Shown here in pieces: positions 1,228 through 15,389 of a stretch of 64,000 nt of DNA. Position 1 is the stretch's first letter. Each line of letters opens with the position of its first letter. The notes below the pieces were generated by a model. That model was given only the letters and a program-made list of their open reading frames with translations, was not told the DNA's origin and made no database searches. Made by a program: the position numbers and the translations under genes. Source of the stretch: Micromonosporaceae bacterium KJ-029 (GTDB lineage: Bacteria > Actinomycetota > Actinomycetes > Mycobacteriales > Micromonosporaceae); contig BIFP01000068.1 of the NCBI GenBank assembly GCA_005402585.1, forward strand, positions 434,001-498,000, in the 5' to 3' direction.

Positions 1228-1782
1228 ATGCCCCCCGCTGAGCTGAGAGAACGCCTCGTCGCGCTGTTCCGCTGGATCGACCCCGGCGCCGGCACGAGTC
1301 ACCTGGTCAGCGACGTCTCCGGCTGGTGGCGCGATCCGACGGTCCTCGCCGAGCTGGGTCCCGCGCTGGTCGCACCGTTCCGATCGGCCCGGCCCACCGT
1401 GGTCGTCTCTCCGGCGGTCACCGGGCTCCTGCTCGGCCCACTGGCGGCCACGGCGCTCGGCGTGGGCTTCGTGGCGGCCCACAAGCCAGGCGACGGGCGG
1501 CTACCCGCCGGGTCGCTGACCTGGGCGCAGAGCCCGCCCGACTTCCGCGGACGGCGGGTCGACCTGGCCGTCCGCGACCGGCACCTCGGCCCCGGTGACC
1601 GGGTGCTGGTAGTGGACGACTGGGTCGCCACCGCCGCCCAGGTACGCGCCCTCTACGAGATCTGCGCGGCCCGGGGCGCCGAGCCCCTGGGCACCTCCGC
1701 CGTGATGCTCGACTGCCCGCCGCCGGTGGCGGACGAGTTTCGCATCCACGGTCTCCTAACCGAAACCGACCTGCCCGCTTGA
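1228..1782 (+). CDS. Phosphoribosyltransferase-family protein
   Basis: The protein of about 184 residues has a type I phosphoribosyltransferase fold signature. The PRPP-binding motif is visible as VLVVDDWVATAAQ, preceded by a substrate-side segment and followed by the usual small-residue helix. The N-terminal segment LVALFRWIDPGAGTSHLVSDVSGWWRDP and the VVVSPAVTGLLLGPLAA motif match the adenine-phosphoribosyltransferase-like proteins of actinomycetes. The substrate is not evident, and the usual purine-specific loop is too diverged to assign adenine. The ATG at 1228 is preferred because AGGA lies 7 nt upstream; in-frame ATGs at 1201 and 1177 are alternatives with poorer upstream sequence. The gene is monocistronic and diverges from the RlpA-like gene. 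Confidence 0.75.
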   Translation: MPPAELRERLVALFRWIDPGAGTSHLVSDVSGWWRDPTVLAELGPALVAPFRSARPTVVVSPAVTGLLLGPLAATALGVGFVAAHKPGDGRLPAGSLTWAQSPPDFRGRRVDLAVRDRHLGPGDRVLVVDDWVATAAQVRALYEICAARGAEPLGTSAVMLDCPPPVADEFRIHGLLTETDLPA

Positions 1783-1853: not shown

Positions 1854-2369
1854 TCAGCGCACGAAGTCCTCGACCACCGTGCAGACCCGGCCGAGCGCCT
1901 CGGCGGAGCGGGCCAACGGTCCGGGCACCATCAGCGCGTGGTCGGCGGCCGGGATCTCCAACACGTTCGGGGTCAGCCGCCGGGCGACCGCGCCGTCCCA
2001 GGACGGATCGGCACCGCCGCCGACCAGGATGAACGGGGCGGTGGCCCGGCGCAGCGCGTCTACCACCTCGCCGCGGTGCAGCAACGGGGTGAGCCAGACG
2101 GCGGGCAGCCCCCGATCGGCGGCAAGGGGTGCGGCCAGCGTGCCGAGCGACTTGCCGACCAGCAGGTCGGTGCGCTCGGCCAGGGTCGGTGCGACCTGAT
2201 CGCACACCCACCTGCCGATGGTCTCCACGTCGAAGTCGTCCGGCACCTGCCAGGAGATCCCGTGCAGCCCGAAGCCGGCCCGACGCAGCGCCTCTCCCAG
2301 GTAGAGGAAGAGGGGATAGCGCGTGTCGTAGCCGCGTCCCGGGATGAGCACCGCACGTCTGTCCGCCAT
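1854..2369 (-). CDS. Small alpha/beta hydrolase
   Basis: The 171-residue protein shows a compact alpha/beta-hydrolase layout. It has an N-terminal strand followed by the PGRGYDTRYP loop, a nucleophile elbow GKSLGT (Ser at about residue 73), a GGGADPSWDG segment that carries the acid residue, and a late AADHAL segment with the His. It lacks a lid domain and is shorter than typical family members. The substrate is unknown. The ATG at 2369 has GGAGACG a few bases upstream. A longer reading frame that continues upstream and overlaps the next gene's promoter is not supported by family alignment. The gene stands alone between two plus-strand genes. Confidence 0.8.
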   Translation of the reverse strand: MADRRAVLIPGRGYDTRYPLFLYLGEALRRAGFGLHGISWQVPDDFDVETIGRWVCDQVAPTLAERTDLLVGKSLGTLAAPLAADRGLPAVWLTPLLHRGEVVDALRRATAPFILVGGGADPSWDGAVARRLTPNVLEIPAADHALMVPGPLARSAEALGRVCTVVEDFVR

Positions 2370-10542: not shown

Positions 10543-11583
10543 TCAGCCGGGTCGGCCGAAACTGTGGATGGGGCTACTGTCCATCCGCTTCATCTTGACC
10601 GGCTGGCCCGCGCGGGAGGCGTGCACCACCCAGCCACCGCCGACGTTCATGCCGACGTGGTGCAGGTCCCGGTAGTAGAAGACCAGGTCACCGGGGCGCA
10701 ACTCGCTCCGGCTGACCGACGCGGTGACCTGGCGCTGCCGCGCCGCGTTGTGTGGCAGCGCCACCCCGGCCCGCGCCCACGCGGCCAGCATCAGCCCGGA
10801 GCAGTCGTACGCGTTCGGCCCCTCGGCACCCCACGAGTACGGCTTGCCGATCTGAGCGCAGGCGAAGGTGACCGCCTCCCCGGCCGCACCGCCCGGGTAG
10901 CTCGCCGGGCAGGGGGCCGGCCGCAACGTGCCGCCACCCCCGTTGCCGTACGCCCGCAGCCGCAGCCGTTGCAGCCGGTCGATCTCGGCGTCGATCTGCC
11001 GCCGCTTCGCCGCGAGTTGTGCCTCCGTCCGGGCCAGTTGGCCGATGGTCGCGTCCAGCCCGGCCTTGGCGGCGGCGAGTTCGTCGCGCAACGCACTGGC
11101 CTGCCGCACGTCCTCCTGCTGGTAGTGGGCGTAGCGGTCGAGCATGCCGAGCTGCTCGACGACCTCGCCGGGCGACCGACTGCCGAGTAGCGTGTTGACC
11201 GCCCGGACCGTCTCGCCCTTGTAGGCCCGCACGGCCAGCGCACCGACCCGGTCCATCGCCTCGTCCACCTGACGTTGCAGCGGCGCGATCCGGGTGGCCA
11301 GGGCGTCGGCCTGCCGCCGCTTCGCGGTCAGGTCCTGCCGGGTGGCGTTGTGCCGTTCGATGACGGGTTCGAGCCTGTTCCAGTCCTCGTCGATCTGGCG
11401 CTCGATATCGGCGACCGTGGGGTCGGCGTGTGCCGCCGTGGTGCCGCCGGTCAGGATCACGGCGGCGGTGGCCAGGACGGCGAGTGCGGTGGTGCAGCGG
11501 TACCAGCGGGAACGCGGCCGAGCCGTCGTCGGGCCGGGCATCGCCGGCCGGTGCGACGGTGGCCGCGGGGCATGGTGTGCCAC
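10543..11583 (-). CDS. Secreted NlpC/P60 (C40) peptidoglycan hydrolase, c-di-AMP riboswitch-controlled
   Basis: The 346-residue protein has a signal or anchor helix (about residues 28-52, ending near AHA), a long coiled-coil region (about 57-215) with many Arg/Ala/Gln heptads, and a C-terminal NlpC/P60 domain (about 228-346). The catalytic Cys is in AYDCSGLMLAAW, the His in YYRDLHHVGMNVGGGWVVHA, and the third polar residue follows. Such proteins cleave D-Glu-mDAP bonds; the coiled coil is typical of RipA/RipC-like autoinhibited enzymes of cell separation. The start GTG at 11583 has GGAG-type sites upstream. The 5' leader holds a c-di-AMP riboswitch (11607-11725). It is paralogous to the next gene upstream. 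Confidence 0.92.
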   Translation of the reverse strand: MAHHAPRPPSHRPAMPGPTTARPRSRWYRCTTALAVLATAAVILTGGTTAAHADPTVADIERQIDEDWNRLEPVIERHNATRQDLTAKRRQADALATRIAPLQRQVDEAMDRVGALAVRAYKGETVRAVNTLLGSRSPGEVVEQLGMLDRYAHYQQEDVRQASALRDELAAAKAGLDATIGQLARTEAQLAAKRRQIDAEIDRLQRLRLRAYGNGGGGTLRPAPCPASYPGGAAGEAVTFACAQIGKPYSWGAEGPNAYDCSGLMLAAWARAGVALPHNAARQRQVTASVSRSELRPGDLVFYYRDLHHVGMNVGGGWVVHASRAGQPVKMKRMDSSPIHSFGRPG

Positions 11584-11606
11584 CGGGCTCCGTACTCCTT
11601 CTTCCC

Positions 11607-11725
11607 ATACCGCCTACCGGGTTAGCTGACGGGTTCGGGCGGGAAGGGGACGCCCTACCGCGACCATCGCGGATTCACCCCGGGTACCTGGGTCCCCGGC
11701 TCGCTCGGATGCGACTCGGCGGTGT
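11607..11725 (-). promoter_or_regulatory. c-di-AMP riboswitch (ydaO/yuaA leader)
   Basis: On the minus strand the leader contains the ydaO hallmark blocks in order: a CCGGGGACCCAGGTACCCGG region, GGGTGAATCC, CCCTTCCCGCCCGAACC, and CCGTCAGCTAACCCGGTAGG near the 3' end. The outer P1 stem can form from ACACCGCC at the 5' end and GGCGGTAT at the 3' end. The same leader precedes resuscitation-promoting and NlpC/P60 genes in other actinobacteria, where c-di-AMP usually turns expression off. It ends about 24 nt before the start codon. The second NlpC/P60 gene (11916-12929) has no such leader. Confidence 0.92.
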
Positions 11726-11849
11726 CGGACCGTTACCGCCCCGGATGGGCGGACCTGCCAGCGGGCCGACGATTGACCAGCGTAGGGACGACCAGCGTCG
11801 ATACGCAACAGATCAGCACCGTCACTCTCGGTGCTTAAATCGGACAATG

Positions 11850-11884
11850 ACGAGGGCCCCGGTCACTTGACCGGGGGCCCTCGT
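11850..11884 (-). terminator. Terminator hairpin of the upstream NlpC/P60 gene
   Basis: ACGAGGGCCCCGGTC (11850-11864) pairs with GACCGGGGGCCCTCGT (11869-11884), with one bulged base and a 4-nt loop. It lies 32 bp after the stop of the NlpC/P60 gene and before the riboswitch of the next gene, so it separates the two units. Confidence 0.82.
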
Positions 11885-11915
11885 TCGTTCTTGCGCGACC
11901 GCTCAGCTCGGCCGG

Positions 11916-12929
11916 TCAGCCGGGTCTGCGGAAGCCGGCCACGGGCATGGTTGTGATGGGAGAGACGTTGACCGGCTTACCGGCCCGGGGTGCGTGCACC
12001 ATCTGGTTGTTGCCCAGATAGAGCCCGACATGGTGCAGATCGCTGAAGAAGAACACCAGGTCGCCCGGGCGCGCGTCGGCCCGGGAGATGGCCTTGCCCT
12101 CGTTCCACTGGGCGCCGGTGAAGTGGGTGAGATAGATGCCGGCCGACTTGTACGCGTACTGGGTGAGACCGGAGCAGTCGAACGAGTTCGGCCCGGTGGC
12201 GCCCCACACGTACGGCTTGCCGACCTGGGCGCAGGCCGTGCGGATGGCCGTCCGGGCGGCGTTGCTGACCACGCCGTTGATGGTCGGGCAGTTGGTCGTC
12301 TTGACCGTGGTCACCGGCAGCGAGCGTTCGAGCCGCTTGATCTCGGCGTCGATCTGCTTCTTCTTCGCCGCCAGCTCCTTCTCCTGCTTCTCCTGGGAAG
12401 CGATCAGGGTATCGAGCTTGGACTTCTGCGTGTCGTACTTCTTGCGGATCTTCATCACGCCCTCGATCTGCTGACGCTCGTGCGCCGCCAGCCGTTCGAG
12501 GAAGGCCATCTGCTCGCCGAGCAGGTCCGGCTTCGCGTTCAGCAGCACCGCGCCGAGTTCGTAGGACGGGCCAGTGATGTAGTACCGGGAGGCGAGATCG
12601 GCCACCCGGTTCATCGCCAGCTCGGTCTCCAGGGCCAGCGGCTCAATCTTCTTCTGCAGGTCGTCCGACTTCTTGCGGTTGACCTTGAGCTGGGCCCGCA
12701 CCTTGTTGTACTGCTCGATGGTGGGCTCCAGTTGCCGCCACTGCTTGTCGATCTGCGCCTCGATCTCGTCGACCGAGGGTTCGGCGTACGCGGGGGCGGC
12801 GAGCAGGCCGGCGCCGACCGCGGCGGCGGCGACCAGGACGACCAGGCGACGGGCGACCCTGCGCAGGCCACCTGCTCGGCTGGCACGTCCGGGCGCGTGA
12901 CGATGGAGGGGCATGGTTGCCACCGGCAC
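11916..12929 (-). CDS. Secreted NlpC/P60 (C40) peptidoglycan hydrolase
   Basis: The 337-residue paralogue of the neighbouring hydrolase has the same layout: an N-terminal basic segment and signal helix (about residues 27-49), a long Lys/Glu/Gln-rich coiled coil (about 52-205), and a C-terminal NlpC/P60 domain (about 218-337). The catalytic Cys is in NSFDCSGLTQYAYKS and the His is in FFSDLHHVGLYLGNNQMVHAP. The coiled-coil is richer in Lys than that of its paralogue. A GTG at 12929 follows AAAGGAG with a 3-nt gap; GTG 12923 and ATG 12914 are possible alternatives. No c-di-AMP leader is visible, so the pair probably differ in regulation. The expected role is cell-wall remodelling at division. 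Confidence 0.92.
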   Translation of the reverse strand: MPVATMPLHRHAPGRASRAGGLRRVARRLVVLVAAAAVGAGLLAAPAYAEPSVDEIEAQIDKQWRQLEPTIEQYNKVRAQLKVNRKKSDDLQKKIEPLALETELAMNRVADLASRYYITGPSYELGAVLLNAKPDLLGEQMAFLERLAAHERQQIEGVMKIRKKYDTQKSKLDTLIASQEKQEKELAAKKKQIDAEIKRLERSLPVTTVKTTNCPTINGVVSNAARTAIRTACAQVGKPYVWGATGPNSFDCSGLTQYAYKSAGIYLTHFTGAQWNEGKAISRADARPGDLVFFFSDLHHVGLYLGNNQMVHAPRAGKPVNVSPITTMPVAGFRRPG

Positions 12930-13123
12930 CGACTCCTTTGCAACCGACCACCGGGCGTCTCGCGAGCGGTAGGGGGCGAGACAGACGACCTACGGCGGCC
13001 GGTGCCCAACATTAGGGAAGGCGCCGCGCGGAATCAAGGCGACCATCGGCCCCTTCACCTTTGCGCGACCGCTCGCACACAAAGGGTGCCGACTATTCCG
13101 TTATAGTTACGTCCGCCAATGCG

Positions 13124-13166
13124 AAAAACGGGGGCGACGACACCGGTCACGGTGCCGCCGCCCCCG
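13124..13166 (-). terminator. Intrinsic terminator with U-tract after the Fe-S oxidoreductase gene
   Basis: In minus-strand RNA, CGGGGGCGGCGGCACCG pairs with CGGUGUCGUCGCCCCCG (17 bp, two G:U) and is followed by UUUUU. It is the only hairpin in the window with a clear U-tract, and its two G:U positions make it a much better hairpin on the minus strand than on the plus strand. Confidence 0.88.
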
Positions 13167-13181
13167 GCGTACGTCCGCTGG

Positions 13182-15389
13182 TCAGCCGGCGACCGGCTCG
13201 TCCTCCGCGGCGCCACGGGCCGGCTCGGGCTTGACCGAACGCAGCAGGACGCTGGCCACGTCGACCACCTCGACCTGCTCCCCGGCGTCCTTGCCGTTGA
13301 CCCCGTCGTTGAGCATGGTCGAGCAGAACGGGCAGCCGACGGCGACGGTTCTCGCGCCGGTGGACATGGCCTCCTCGACCCGGTCCACGTTGATCCGCTT
13401 GCCGATCCGCTCCTCCATCCACATCCGGGCGCCACCGGCGCCGCAGCAGAAGGAGCGCTCGCTGTTACGCGGCATCTCGATCAGACCACCGTCCGCGCCG
13501 CCGGCGATGGCGCTGCCCAGCACCTCACGCGGCGGAGTGAAGACCCGGTTGTGCCGGCCGAGGTAGCACGGGTCGTGGTAGGTCACGCCACCGTCGACCG
13601 GCTGCACCGGGGTGAGCTTGCCGGTGGCGACCAGGTGCGCCAGCAGTTGGGTGTGGTGCACCACCTCGAACTCTCCACCGAGCTGGCCGTACTCGTTGCC
13701 CAGGGTGTTGAAGCAGTGCGGGCAGGTCGCGACGATCTTGCGCTTGCTCTTGTCGCGGCCCTCGAACGCCTCGTTGAGGGTCTCGACGTTCTGCTGCGCG
13801 AGCATCTGGAAGACGAACTCGTTGCCGATCCGGCGGGCCGGGTCACCCGAGCAGGTCTCGCCCTCGCCGAGGATGGCGAACGAGACGCCCGCCTCGTTCA
13901 GCAGCGTGGCCACCGCCCGGGTGGTCTTCTTGGCCCGGTCCTCGAACGCGCCGGCGCAGCCCACCCAGAACAGGTACTCGAAGTCGTCGACCTCACCGAC
14001 CCGGGGAACCTCGAAGTCGAGTCCCTTGGTCCAGTCCTCGCGGGTGTTCTGCGGCGCACCCCAGGGGTTGCCCTTGTTCTCCAGGTTGCGCAGCATCACG
14101 CCGGCCTCGGACGGGAAGCTCGACTCGATCAGCACCTGGTAGCGGCGCATGTCGACGATGTGGTCGACGTGCTCGATGTCCACCGGGCACTGCTCCACAC
14201 AAGCGCCGCAGGTGGTGCACGACCAGAGCACGTCCGGGTCGATCACGCCGCCCGACTCGGCGTCGCCGATCAGCGGCTTCTCCGCCTCGGCGAGCGCCAA
14301 CACGTCGACGTGGGCGAGCTGGGCGGCGGTGGCCTTCTCCTCGCCGGTCAGGTCCTTGCCGCCGCCGGCCAGCAGGTAGGGCGCCTTGGCGTACGCGTGG
14401 TCGCGCAGGCTGAGCACCAGCAGCTTCGGCGACAGCGGCTTGCCGGTGTTCCAGGCCGGGCACTGCGACTGGCACCGCCCGCACTCGGTGCAGGTGCTGA
14501 AGTCCAGCAGGCCCTTCCAGGTGAACTGCTCGACGTGCGCGACACCGAACTGGTCCTTCTCGGGGTCGGCCTCCTCGAAGTCCAGCGGCTTGCCGTCGCT
14601 CATCATGGGCCGGAGCGCGCCGAGGCCGGAGCCGGCCGCACCCGGCTTCCGCTTGAAGAAGATGTTGGGGAACGCGAGGAAGCGGTGCCAGGCGACGCCC
14701 ATGGTCACGTTCAGCGAGATCACGATGAGCCAGGTCATCGAGATCGCGATCTTGATGAGGGCGGCGATGCTGACGCCGGTCTCCCAGCCCGGCAGCGCCG
14801 AACCGACCGCGTGGCTGAGCGGGGTGGCCCAGTGCGGGTACTCGAAGTGGTCGGTGGCCACCTTGAAGCCGCGGATCAGGAAGCCCATGATCAGCACGGC
14901 GAGGACGACCGCCTCGACGAAGTAGCCCTGCCACATGGTGGAGCCGGTGAAGCGCGACCTGCGGCCGGCCCGGTTCGGCCGGTTCGCCAGCCGGATCGCG
15001 ATCAGCACCACGATGCCGACGATGCCCAGGATGCCGATCCACTCGGTGACCAGGCCGTAGAGCGCCCAGCCGCCGATCAGCGGCAGCCCGCCGGTCGACG
15101 ACACCACCTCGAAGTACGCCTCGAGCACCAGCAGCGACAGCACGATGAAGCCGACCATCACGAACCAGTGGGCGGCGCCCACCACGCTCCAGCGGAGCAT
15201 CCGGGTGTGCCCGGCGGTCTCCGCGAGCATGGTCTTCGTGCGGCTGCCCTTGTCACCGAACCGGGACGGGTCGGGCTGACCCAGCCGGATCACGGCCACC
15301 ATCTTCATGACCGCGCGCACCGCAAGCCACACCGCCACGGCGGTGATGGCGGCCGCGAGGATCGTGGTGACGATCTGGACGCTGCCCAT
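13182..15389 (-). CDS. Membrane-bound Fe-S oxidoreductase with CCG domains (heterodisulfide-reductase-like)
   Basis: The 735-residue protein has about five N-terminal membrane helices (within residues 1-250, NarI-like), a soluble region with two 4Fe-4S motifs (CTECGRCQSQCP and CTTCGACVEQCP), and two Cys-rich CCG domains at the C-terminus (segments around CSGDPARR, CPHCFNTLGNEYG and CCGAGGARMWMEE). This is the usual arrangement of actinobacterial proteins related to HdrD/GlpC, which link cytoplasmic oxidation to membrane quinones. The donor is unknown. The gene is monocistronic with its own U-tract terminator. The start ATG at 15389 gives a conserved first helix. Confidence 0.88.
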   Translation of the reverse strand: MGSVQIVTTILAAAITAVAVWLAVRAVMKMVAVIRLGQPDPSRFGDKGSRTKTMLAETAGHTRMLRWSVVGAAHWFVMVGFIVLSLLVLEAYFEVVSSTGGLPLIGGWALYGLVTEWIGILGIVGIVVLIAIRLANRPNRAGRRSRFTGSTMWQGYFVEAVVLAVLIMGFLIRGFKVATDHFEYPHWATPLSHAVGSALPGWETGVSIAALIKIAISMTWLIVISLNVTMGVAWHRFLAFPNIFFKRKPGAAGSGLGALRPMMSDGKPLDFEEADPEKDQFGVAHVEQFTWKGLLDFSTCTECGRCQSQCPAWNTGKPLSPKLLVLSLRDHAYAKAPYLLAGGGKDLTGEEKATAAQLAHVDVLALAEAEKPLIGDAESGGVIDPDVLWSCTTCGACVEQCPVDIEHVDHIVDMRRYQVLIESSFPSEAGVMLRNLENKGNPWGAPQNTREDWTKGLDFEVPRVGEVDDFEYLFWVGCAGAFEDRAKKTTRAVATLLNEAGVSFAILGEGETCSGDPARRIGNEFVFQMLAQQNVETLNEAFEGRDKSKRKIVATCPHCFNTLGNEYGQLGGEFEVVHHTQLLAHLVATGKLTPVQPVDGGVTYHDPCYLGRHNRVFTPPREVLGSAIAGGADGGLIEMPRNSERSFCCGAGGARMWMEERIGKRINVDRVEEAMSTGARTVAVGCPFCSTMLNDGVNGKDAGEQVEVVDVASVLLRSVKPEPARGAAEDEPVAG

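Follow-up and report, generated by a model that had tools for sequence, protein, structure and literature searches.

Within the window, the 64,000-nt stretch of DNA analysed here, two neighbouring and paralogous genes encode NlpC/P60 hydrolases, referred to below as hydrolase A and hydrolase B, and only hydrolase A has a c-di-AMP riboswitch in its leader. We consider it likely that this leader works as a translational OFF switch, that the riboswitch is ancestral and was lost by hydrolase B, and that c-di-AMP tunes hydrolase A and not hydrolase B. A broader reading is put forward tentatively and is in our judgement on the unlikely side: hydrolase A would have kept the ancestral c-di-AMP switch, hydrolase B would have exchanged it for an undescribed cis-regulatory RNA, the two would respond to different RNA-sensed signals, and the additional stem P0 of actinobacterial copies would be specific to that lineage.

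A c-di-AMP riboswitch in the leader of hydrolase A

Comparison of the window with Rfam by cmscan returned a single match to RF00379, the c-di-AMP/ydaO/yuaA riboswitch, on the minus strand (Table 1). This match (E 1.2e-21, against a gathering score of 38 bits) covers the full model, 1-134, without truncation. With R1, an aptamer model made in this analysis from 31 riboswitch copies, the site ranks second of 53 matches. All of the invariant aptamer blocks are intact, and the core blocks GGGGUGAAUCC, GGUAGGG and CCCGAACCCGUCAGCUAACC were each found in the alignment to the RF00379 consensus. The preliminary description had identified this leader as a ydaO/yuaA riboswitch and had placed the riboswitch on just one of the two tandem paralogues. 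Both points are borne out, as the block it quoted, CCGTCAGCTAACCCGGTAGG (11632-11613), and its span of 11607-11725 fall inside the match, while a permissive scan of the hydrolase B leader (12850-13200, E up to 10) gave no RF00379 match. Its further claim that c-di-AMP is linked to one specific hydrolase is too narrow, since the genome contains four RF00379 matches; the other three lie upstream of genes for a C39-like peptidase (PF13529) and for two coiled-coil proteins that have no Pfam match and are probably secreted.

The aptamer and hydrolase A lie on one strand, with the aptamer in sense orientation in the 5' leader. The tail and Shine-Dalgarno stretch of this leader, GGAAGAAGGAG, was found again in orthologues. 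A strict scan for the sigma-70 consensus returned no promoter, the putative hydrolase A site included.

Both proteins match PF00877 (77.3 bits for hydrolase A and 95.7 bits for hydrolase B), share 40% identity over 298 residues, and each retain the Cys and the two His residues of the NlpC/P60 site. The best solved-structure relative of hydrolase A is PDB 8idc (E 3.6e-24, residues 225-340), whose molecule name is endopeptidase MT2245, which we take to be RipC. Hydrolases A and B, however, score only 128.3 and 152.4 against the NCBIfam RipC cut-off of 425 bits (NF038345), far under that mark; "RipC-like" therefore denotes no more than a resemblance. In the order of transcription hydrolase B comes first and the riboswitch gene second, the latter with its own putative promoter. 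The inverted repeat between the two genes possibly isolates their transcripts or blocks transcription between them; the strict terminator scan did not pick it up.

Table 1. Features of the hydrolase locus, in window coordinates, and relic riboswitches of related loci, in the coordinates of each locus
Feature	Position	Strand	Evidence
Hydrolase A, RipC-like NlpC/P60, 346 aa, GTG start 26 nt past anchored P1 end	10543..11583	-	PF00877
GGGAAG-AAGGAG: pseudoknot 3' strand (11606-11601) and Shine-Dalgarno (11600-11595)	11595..11606	-	sequence
c-di-AMP (ydaO/yuaA) riboswitch aptamer	11596..11731	-	RF00379 96.7 bits; R1 132.8 bits
Hairpin loop UCCCCUUCC, 5' strand of aptamer pseudoknot	11642..11650	-	class-wide cognate loop/tail pairing
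P0 stem (11770-11763 with 11731-11724) enclosing hairpin P0a (11752-11747 with 11741-11736)	11724..11770	-	22-leader alignment
Putative hydrolase A promoter, TTGCGT - 18 nt - TACGCT	11779..11808	-	TTGCG...CTAC upstream of orthologous aptamers
Strong GC-rich inverted repeat between A and B genes, GAGGGCCCCGGTCA...TGACCGGGGGCCCTC	11850..11885	.	read from sequence
Hydrolase B, paralogous NlpC/P60, 337 aa, without riboswitch	11916..12929	-	PF00877
Structured B leader (R2): 9-pair helix enclosing 7-pair hairpin, then Shine-Dalgarno AAGGAG	12917..13008	-	89.1 bits
Promoter-like TTGATT - 17 nt - TAATGT of hydrolase B	13009..13037	-	kept in most of 14 orthologous leaders
Relic riboswitches before NlpC/P60 genes	L083:5035-5170; L094:3840-3969; L123:3910-3998; L145:2522-2593	-; +; +; -	

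An accessory 5' stem

The aptamer helix P1 is directly preceded by the stem P0 and its enclosed hairpin P0a, a domain absent from the Rfam RF00379 model. Across 22 orthologous hydrolase A leaders, 86% of the P0/P0a cells are paired and both sides have changed in 10 of the 15 pairs. The 34 double-change cells compare with 12.3 +- 3.0 in shuffles (0/500), and sliding the structure by 1-3 columns yielded 13 at most. Pairing between the P0 strands is also specific to the cognate partner: permuted partners paired as well in 36 of 5000 permutations for the hydrolase A leaders, in 0/5000 both for outgroup hydrolase leaders and for the family's other riboswitch genes, and in 2/5000 for other actinomycete riboswitches. 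The signal is weak in the family's remaining hydrolases (285/5000). Unlike in the hydrolase A leader, P0 pairing was not detected in 40 non-actinobacterial copies, where 2735 of 5000 permutations were as good. A model of the P0 domain gave weak scores, yet it placed the domain just upstream of the aptamer, as expected, in many further hydrolase leaders. These patterns suggest that actinobacterial c-di-AMP riboswitches carry a lineage-specific, covarying extra 5' stem.

Pseudoknot, spacing and proposed mechanism

Among 65 riboswitch-hydrolase leaders the first in-frame start codon lies a median of 25 nt beyond the 3' end of P1, and in 54 of them this spacing is 22-28 nt; 63 of the 65 contain a Shine-Dalgarno-like word. 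In the last aptamer hairpin a pyrimidine loop pairs with a purine tail. Cognate loop-tail pairs had lower mean energies than exchanged ones in the same family (-10.5 vs -9.6 kcal/mol), in other actinomycetes (-10.3 vs -8.8 kcal/mol) and in other phyla (-10.1 vs -7.0 kcal/mol), each with 0/5000 permutations, a significance that is overstated because related sequences were counted as exchangeable. The window's own best pseudoknot helix is short, at 4-5 bp, with several competing registers, and its GGGAAG strand directly adjoins the Shine-Dalgarno sequence AAGGAG. A stable pseudoknot has been reported in the crystallised ydaO RNA (PMC5393176), in which the same loop/tail element occurs as CUCCUUCG/CGAAGGAG, the exact pairing being our own reading of the printed sequence.

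We propose that at high c-di-AMP the aptamer of the hydrolase A leader would fold and its hairpin loop would pair with the 3' tail to form the pseudoknot typical of the class. The pseudoknot would then bury or sterically block the adjoining Shine-Dalgarno sequence, so that less hydrolase A would be made. We infer this OFF wiring from the Corynebacterium glutamicum nlpC data discussed below and from the position of the pseudoknot strand beside the Shine-Dalgarno sequence. Hydrolase B, having lost the riboswitch, would escape tuning by c-di-AMP, and in a group of genera it has a structured leader of its own and a promoter-like element. The genome encodes a single diadenylate cyclase domain (PF02457), and synthesis of the ligand is therefore probable.

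Loss of the riboswitch from hydrolase B

Sixty regions around the hydrolase were collected from relatives in the same family, which we take to be Micromonosporaceae, and their riboswitches were located with R1. After homologous hydrolases had been added from further families of the class, a tree of 123 proteins was rooted on those families. The 23 B orthologues group together in a single, fully supported clade (100), and none of them carries a riboswitch. In 19 of 21 tandem pairs the A partner has the riboswitch, and in the other two neither partner does; among outgroup NlpC proteins it is present in 23 of 32. In a two-state likelihood reconstruction the probability that a riboswitch was present is P 1.00 at the A/B ancestor, P 0.997 at the node parental to the B stem and P 0.013 at the B crown. 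Support is moderate (SH-aLRT 86-87) for the branches by which B falls among riboswitch-bearing lineages. With a riboswitch reconstructed at the ancestor and a B clade uniformly without one, the tree indicates an ancient, family-level duplication and an ancestral riboswitch that was lost once, on the B stem, the loss being old and inherited. The preliminary description had left it open whether control was gained or lost after duplication; a change after duplication is upheld, and its direction is loss on the B stem rather than gain.

Related hydrolases are also preceded by four relic leaders in which P1 and the Shine-Dalgarno region are kept and the ligand core is gone (Table 1), showing that riboswitch loss recurs among these genes. 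In two of the relics, L083 and L094, the tail GGAAG has become GGACG, as would be expected if the pseudoknot were no longer needed.

Two further arrangements were seen in the family. In one genus the riboswitch is found at both tandem hydrolases, unlike in the window (L079 5035-5176 and 6604-6740; L102 5031-5172 and 6599-6740). Five genomes (G016, G018, G028, G036 and G040) have no c-di-AMP riboswitch match and have kept NlpC/P60 homologues.

The leader of hydrolase B

The leader of hydrolase B had been called ordinary, a description that does not fit a conserved, covarying two-helix RNA outside Rfam. In 14 B orthologues the sequence is conserved from the TTGATT...TAATGT element down to the start codon, and both sides have changed in 8 of 16 pairs, compared with 3.3 +- 1.2 in shuffles (0/500). 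A model of this leader, R2, has matches in 13 of 61 genomes and 9 of 42 genera of the family sample, and these matches precede B genes. Nothing credible was found with R2 in the class-wide sample; a match in L355, the sole one outside the window's genome, was weak, lay inside apparent coding sequence and was taken as chance. No Rfam family matched the B leader at threshold, with only weak matches below it. An alternative fold, in which 5' GGCACCGAC pairs with GTCGGTGCC beyond the Shine-Dalgarno sequence, was 87% paired but without covariation and was rejected.

Alternative explanations

The riboswitch of hydrolase A could act mainly on transcription, through premature termination, intrinsic or Rho-dependent, in the leader or the early coding region. 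Streptomyces rpfA is reported to be controlled by transcription termination (PMC10117811), so the level of control at hydrolase A may differ from the translational one proposed here, and attenuation independent of c-di-AMP has been described in the leader of C. glutamicum nlpC (PMC9960051). The gap of about 25 nt between aptamer and start codon, however, leaves no room for an intrinsic terminator, a U-run (TTTT) occurs in 0 of the 65 riboswitch-NlpC leaders, and the strict terminator scan found no intrinsic terminator between the aptamer and the start codon of hydrolase A. A terminator-type ydaO switch was rejected on these grounds, and we regard mainly transcriptional control as improbable, with translational control remaining the preferred reading. 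The existence of core-less relics at related hydrolases also raises the possibility that the hydrolase A aptamer is itself a degenerate copy that has ceased to sense c-di-AMP, but with its invariant blocks intact and the second-highest of 53 scores this is very hard to credit.

The history of the pair allows other readings as well. That every B orthologue lacks the riboswitch, as do some A-like lineages, would agree with a gain by hydrolase A after the duplication, but most NlpC/P60 homologues in other families carry the riboswitch with unchanged spacing to the start codon, the reconstruction gives the A/B ancestor a riboswitch, and degraded copies show recurrent loss; we give gain by hydrolase A almost no credence beside loss by hydrolase B. 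It is a more serious prospect, although the weaker one, that the B leader is a remodelled remnant of the lost riboswitch and not a new element. The A and B leaders are alike from the Shine-Dalgarno sequence to the start and loosely so at the 3' strand of P1 (CCCGGYGGTCGGT vs CCCGGTAGGCGGT). Against this, R1 run with its filters off over 13 B-leader loci left the B leaders unmatched, and R2 matched A leaders only weakly, around the Shine-Dalgarno sequence and start. On these searches the B leader is neither demonstrably homologous to the c-di-AMP aptamer nor detectably such an aptamer itself.

Relation to known systems

The riboswitch class and the kind of target described here are already known. 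Actinobacterial NlpC/P60 genes under riboswitch control have been reported, the closest precedent being C. glutamicum nlpC (PMC9960051). As at hydrolase A, RF00379 there (cg2402/nlpC) precedes an NlpC/P60 gene with a second NlpC/P60 neighbour and has no terminator; repression there acts on translation, as we propose for hydrolase A, and a pseudoknot with the RBS has been suggested (PMC9960051). In that system c-di-AMP lowers reporter protein and not mRNA, in a two-gene reporter the effect is confined to the first gene, the authors propose CTCC-GGAG pairing with the RBS, and the leader also shows the c-di-AMP-independent attenuation noted above (PMC9960051). The C. glutamicum genes form one operon with the riboswitch gene first, whereas here the riboswitch gene is second and hydrolase B has a structured leader to itself.

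In Streptomyces, ydaO-like riboswitches of this aptamer class occur more than once in a genome and likewise precede genes for secreted cell wall hydrolases, rpfA among them (PMC10117811, PMC8079986). A review describes rpfA as responding through premature transcription termination (PMC10117811), in contrast to the architecture of the hydrolase A leader, which points to translation. Actinobacterial reports thus disagree on the level of control, and the 25-nt spacing from aptamer to start, fixed throughout a class-wide set, suggests that translational control is the rule for actinobacterial NlpC/P60 genes. The ydaO/kimA riboswitches of Bacillota have the aptamer core and loop-tail pseudoknot of hydrolase A; in Bacillus subtilis the platform is transcription termination (PMC9960051), unlike the wiring proposed for hydrolase A.

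The present analysis adds when and in which direction regulation of the two genes diverged, and the compact actinobacterial architecture with its pseudoknot at the Shine-Dalgarno sequence; a probable lineage-specific P0 stem, the relic riboswitches and the separate structured leader of hydrolase B are further additions. The pair illustrates how the regulation of cell-wall-cutting enzymes may be rewired. With their common origin, one presumably controlled by c-di-AMP and the other released, the two genes offer a natural internal control, repeated in 19 of 21 sampled pairs, so that the reason why c-di-AMP restrains particular cell wall hydrolases could be tested within a single strain. Both the B leader and the P0 stem are defined RNA elements open to probing.

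Elsewhere among the sampled loci, c-di-AMP riboswitches also occur as divergent pairs with a spacing of a few hundred bases, and seem to precede pairs of divergent genes, in L056 (1162-1293, minus strand, and 1501-1636, plus strand) and L061 (1501-1638, minus strand, and 1918-2054, plus strand).
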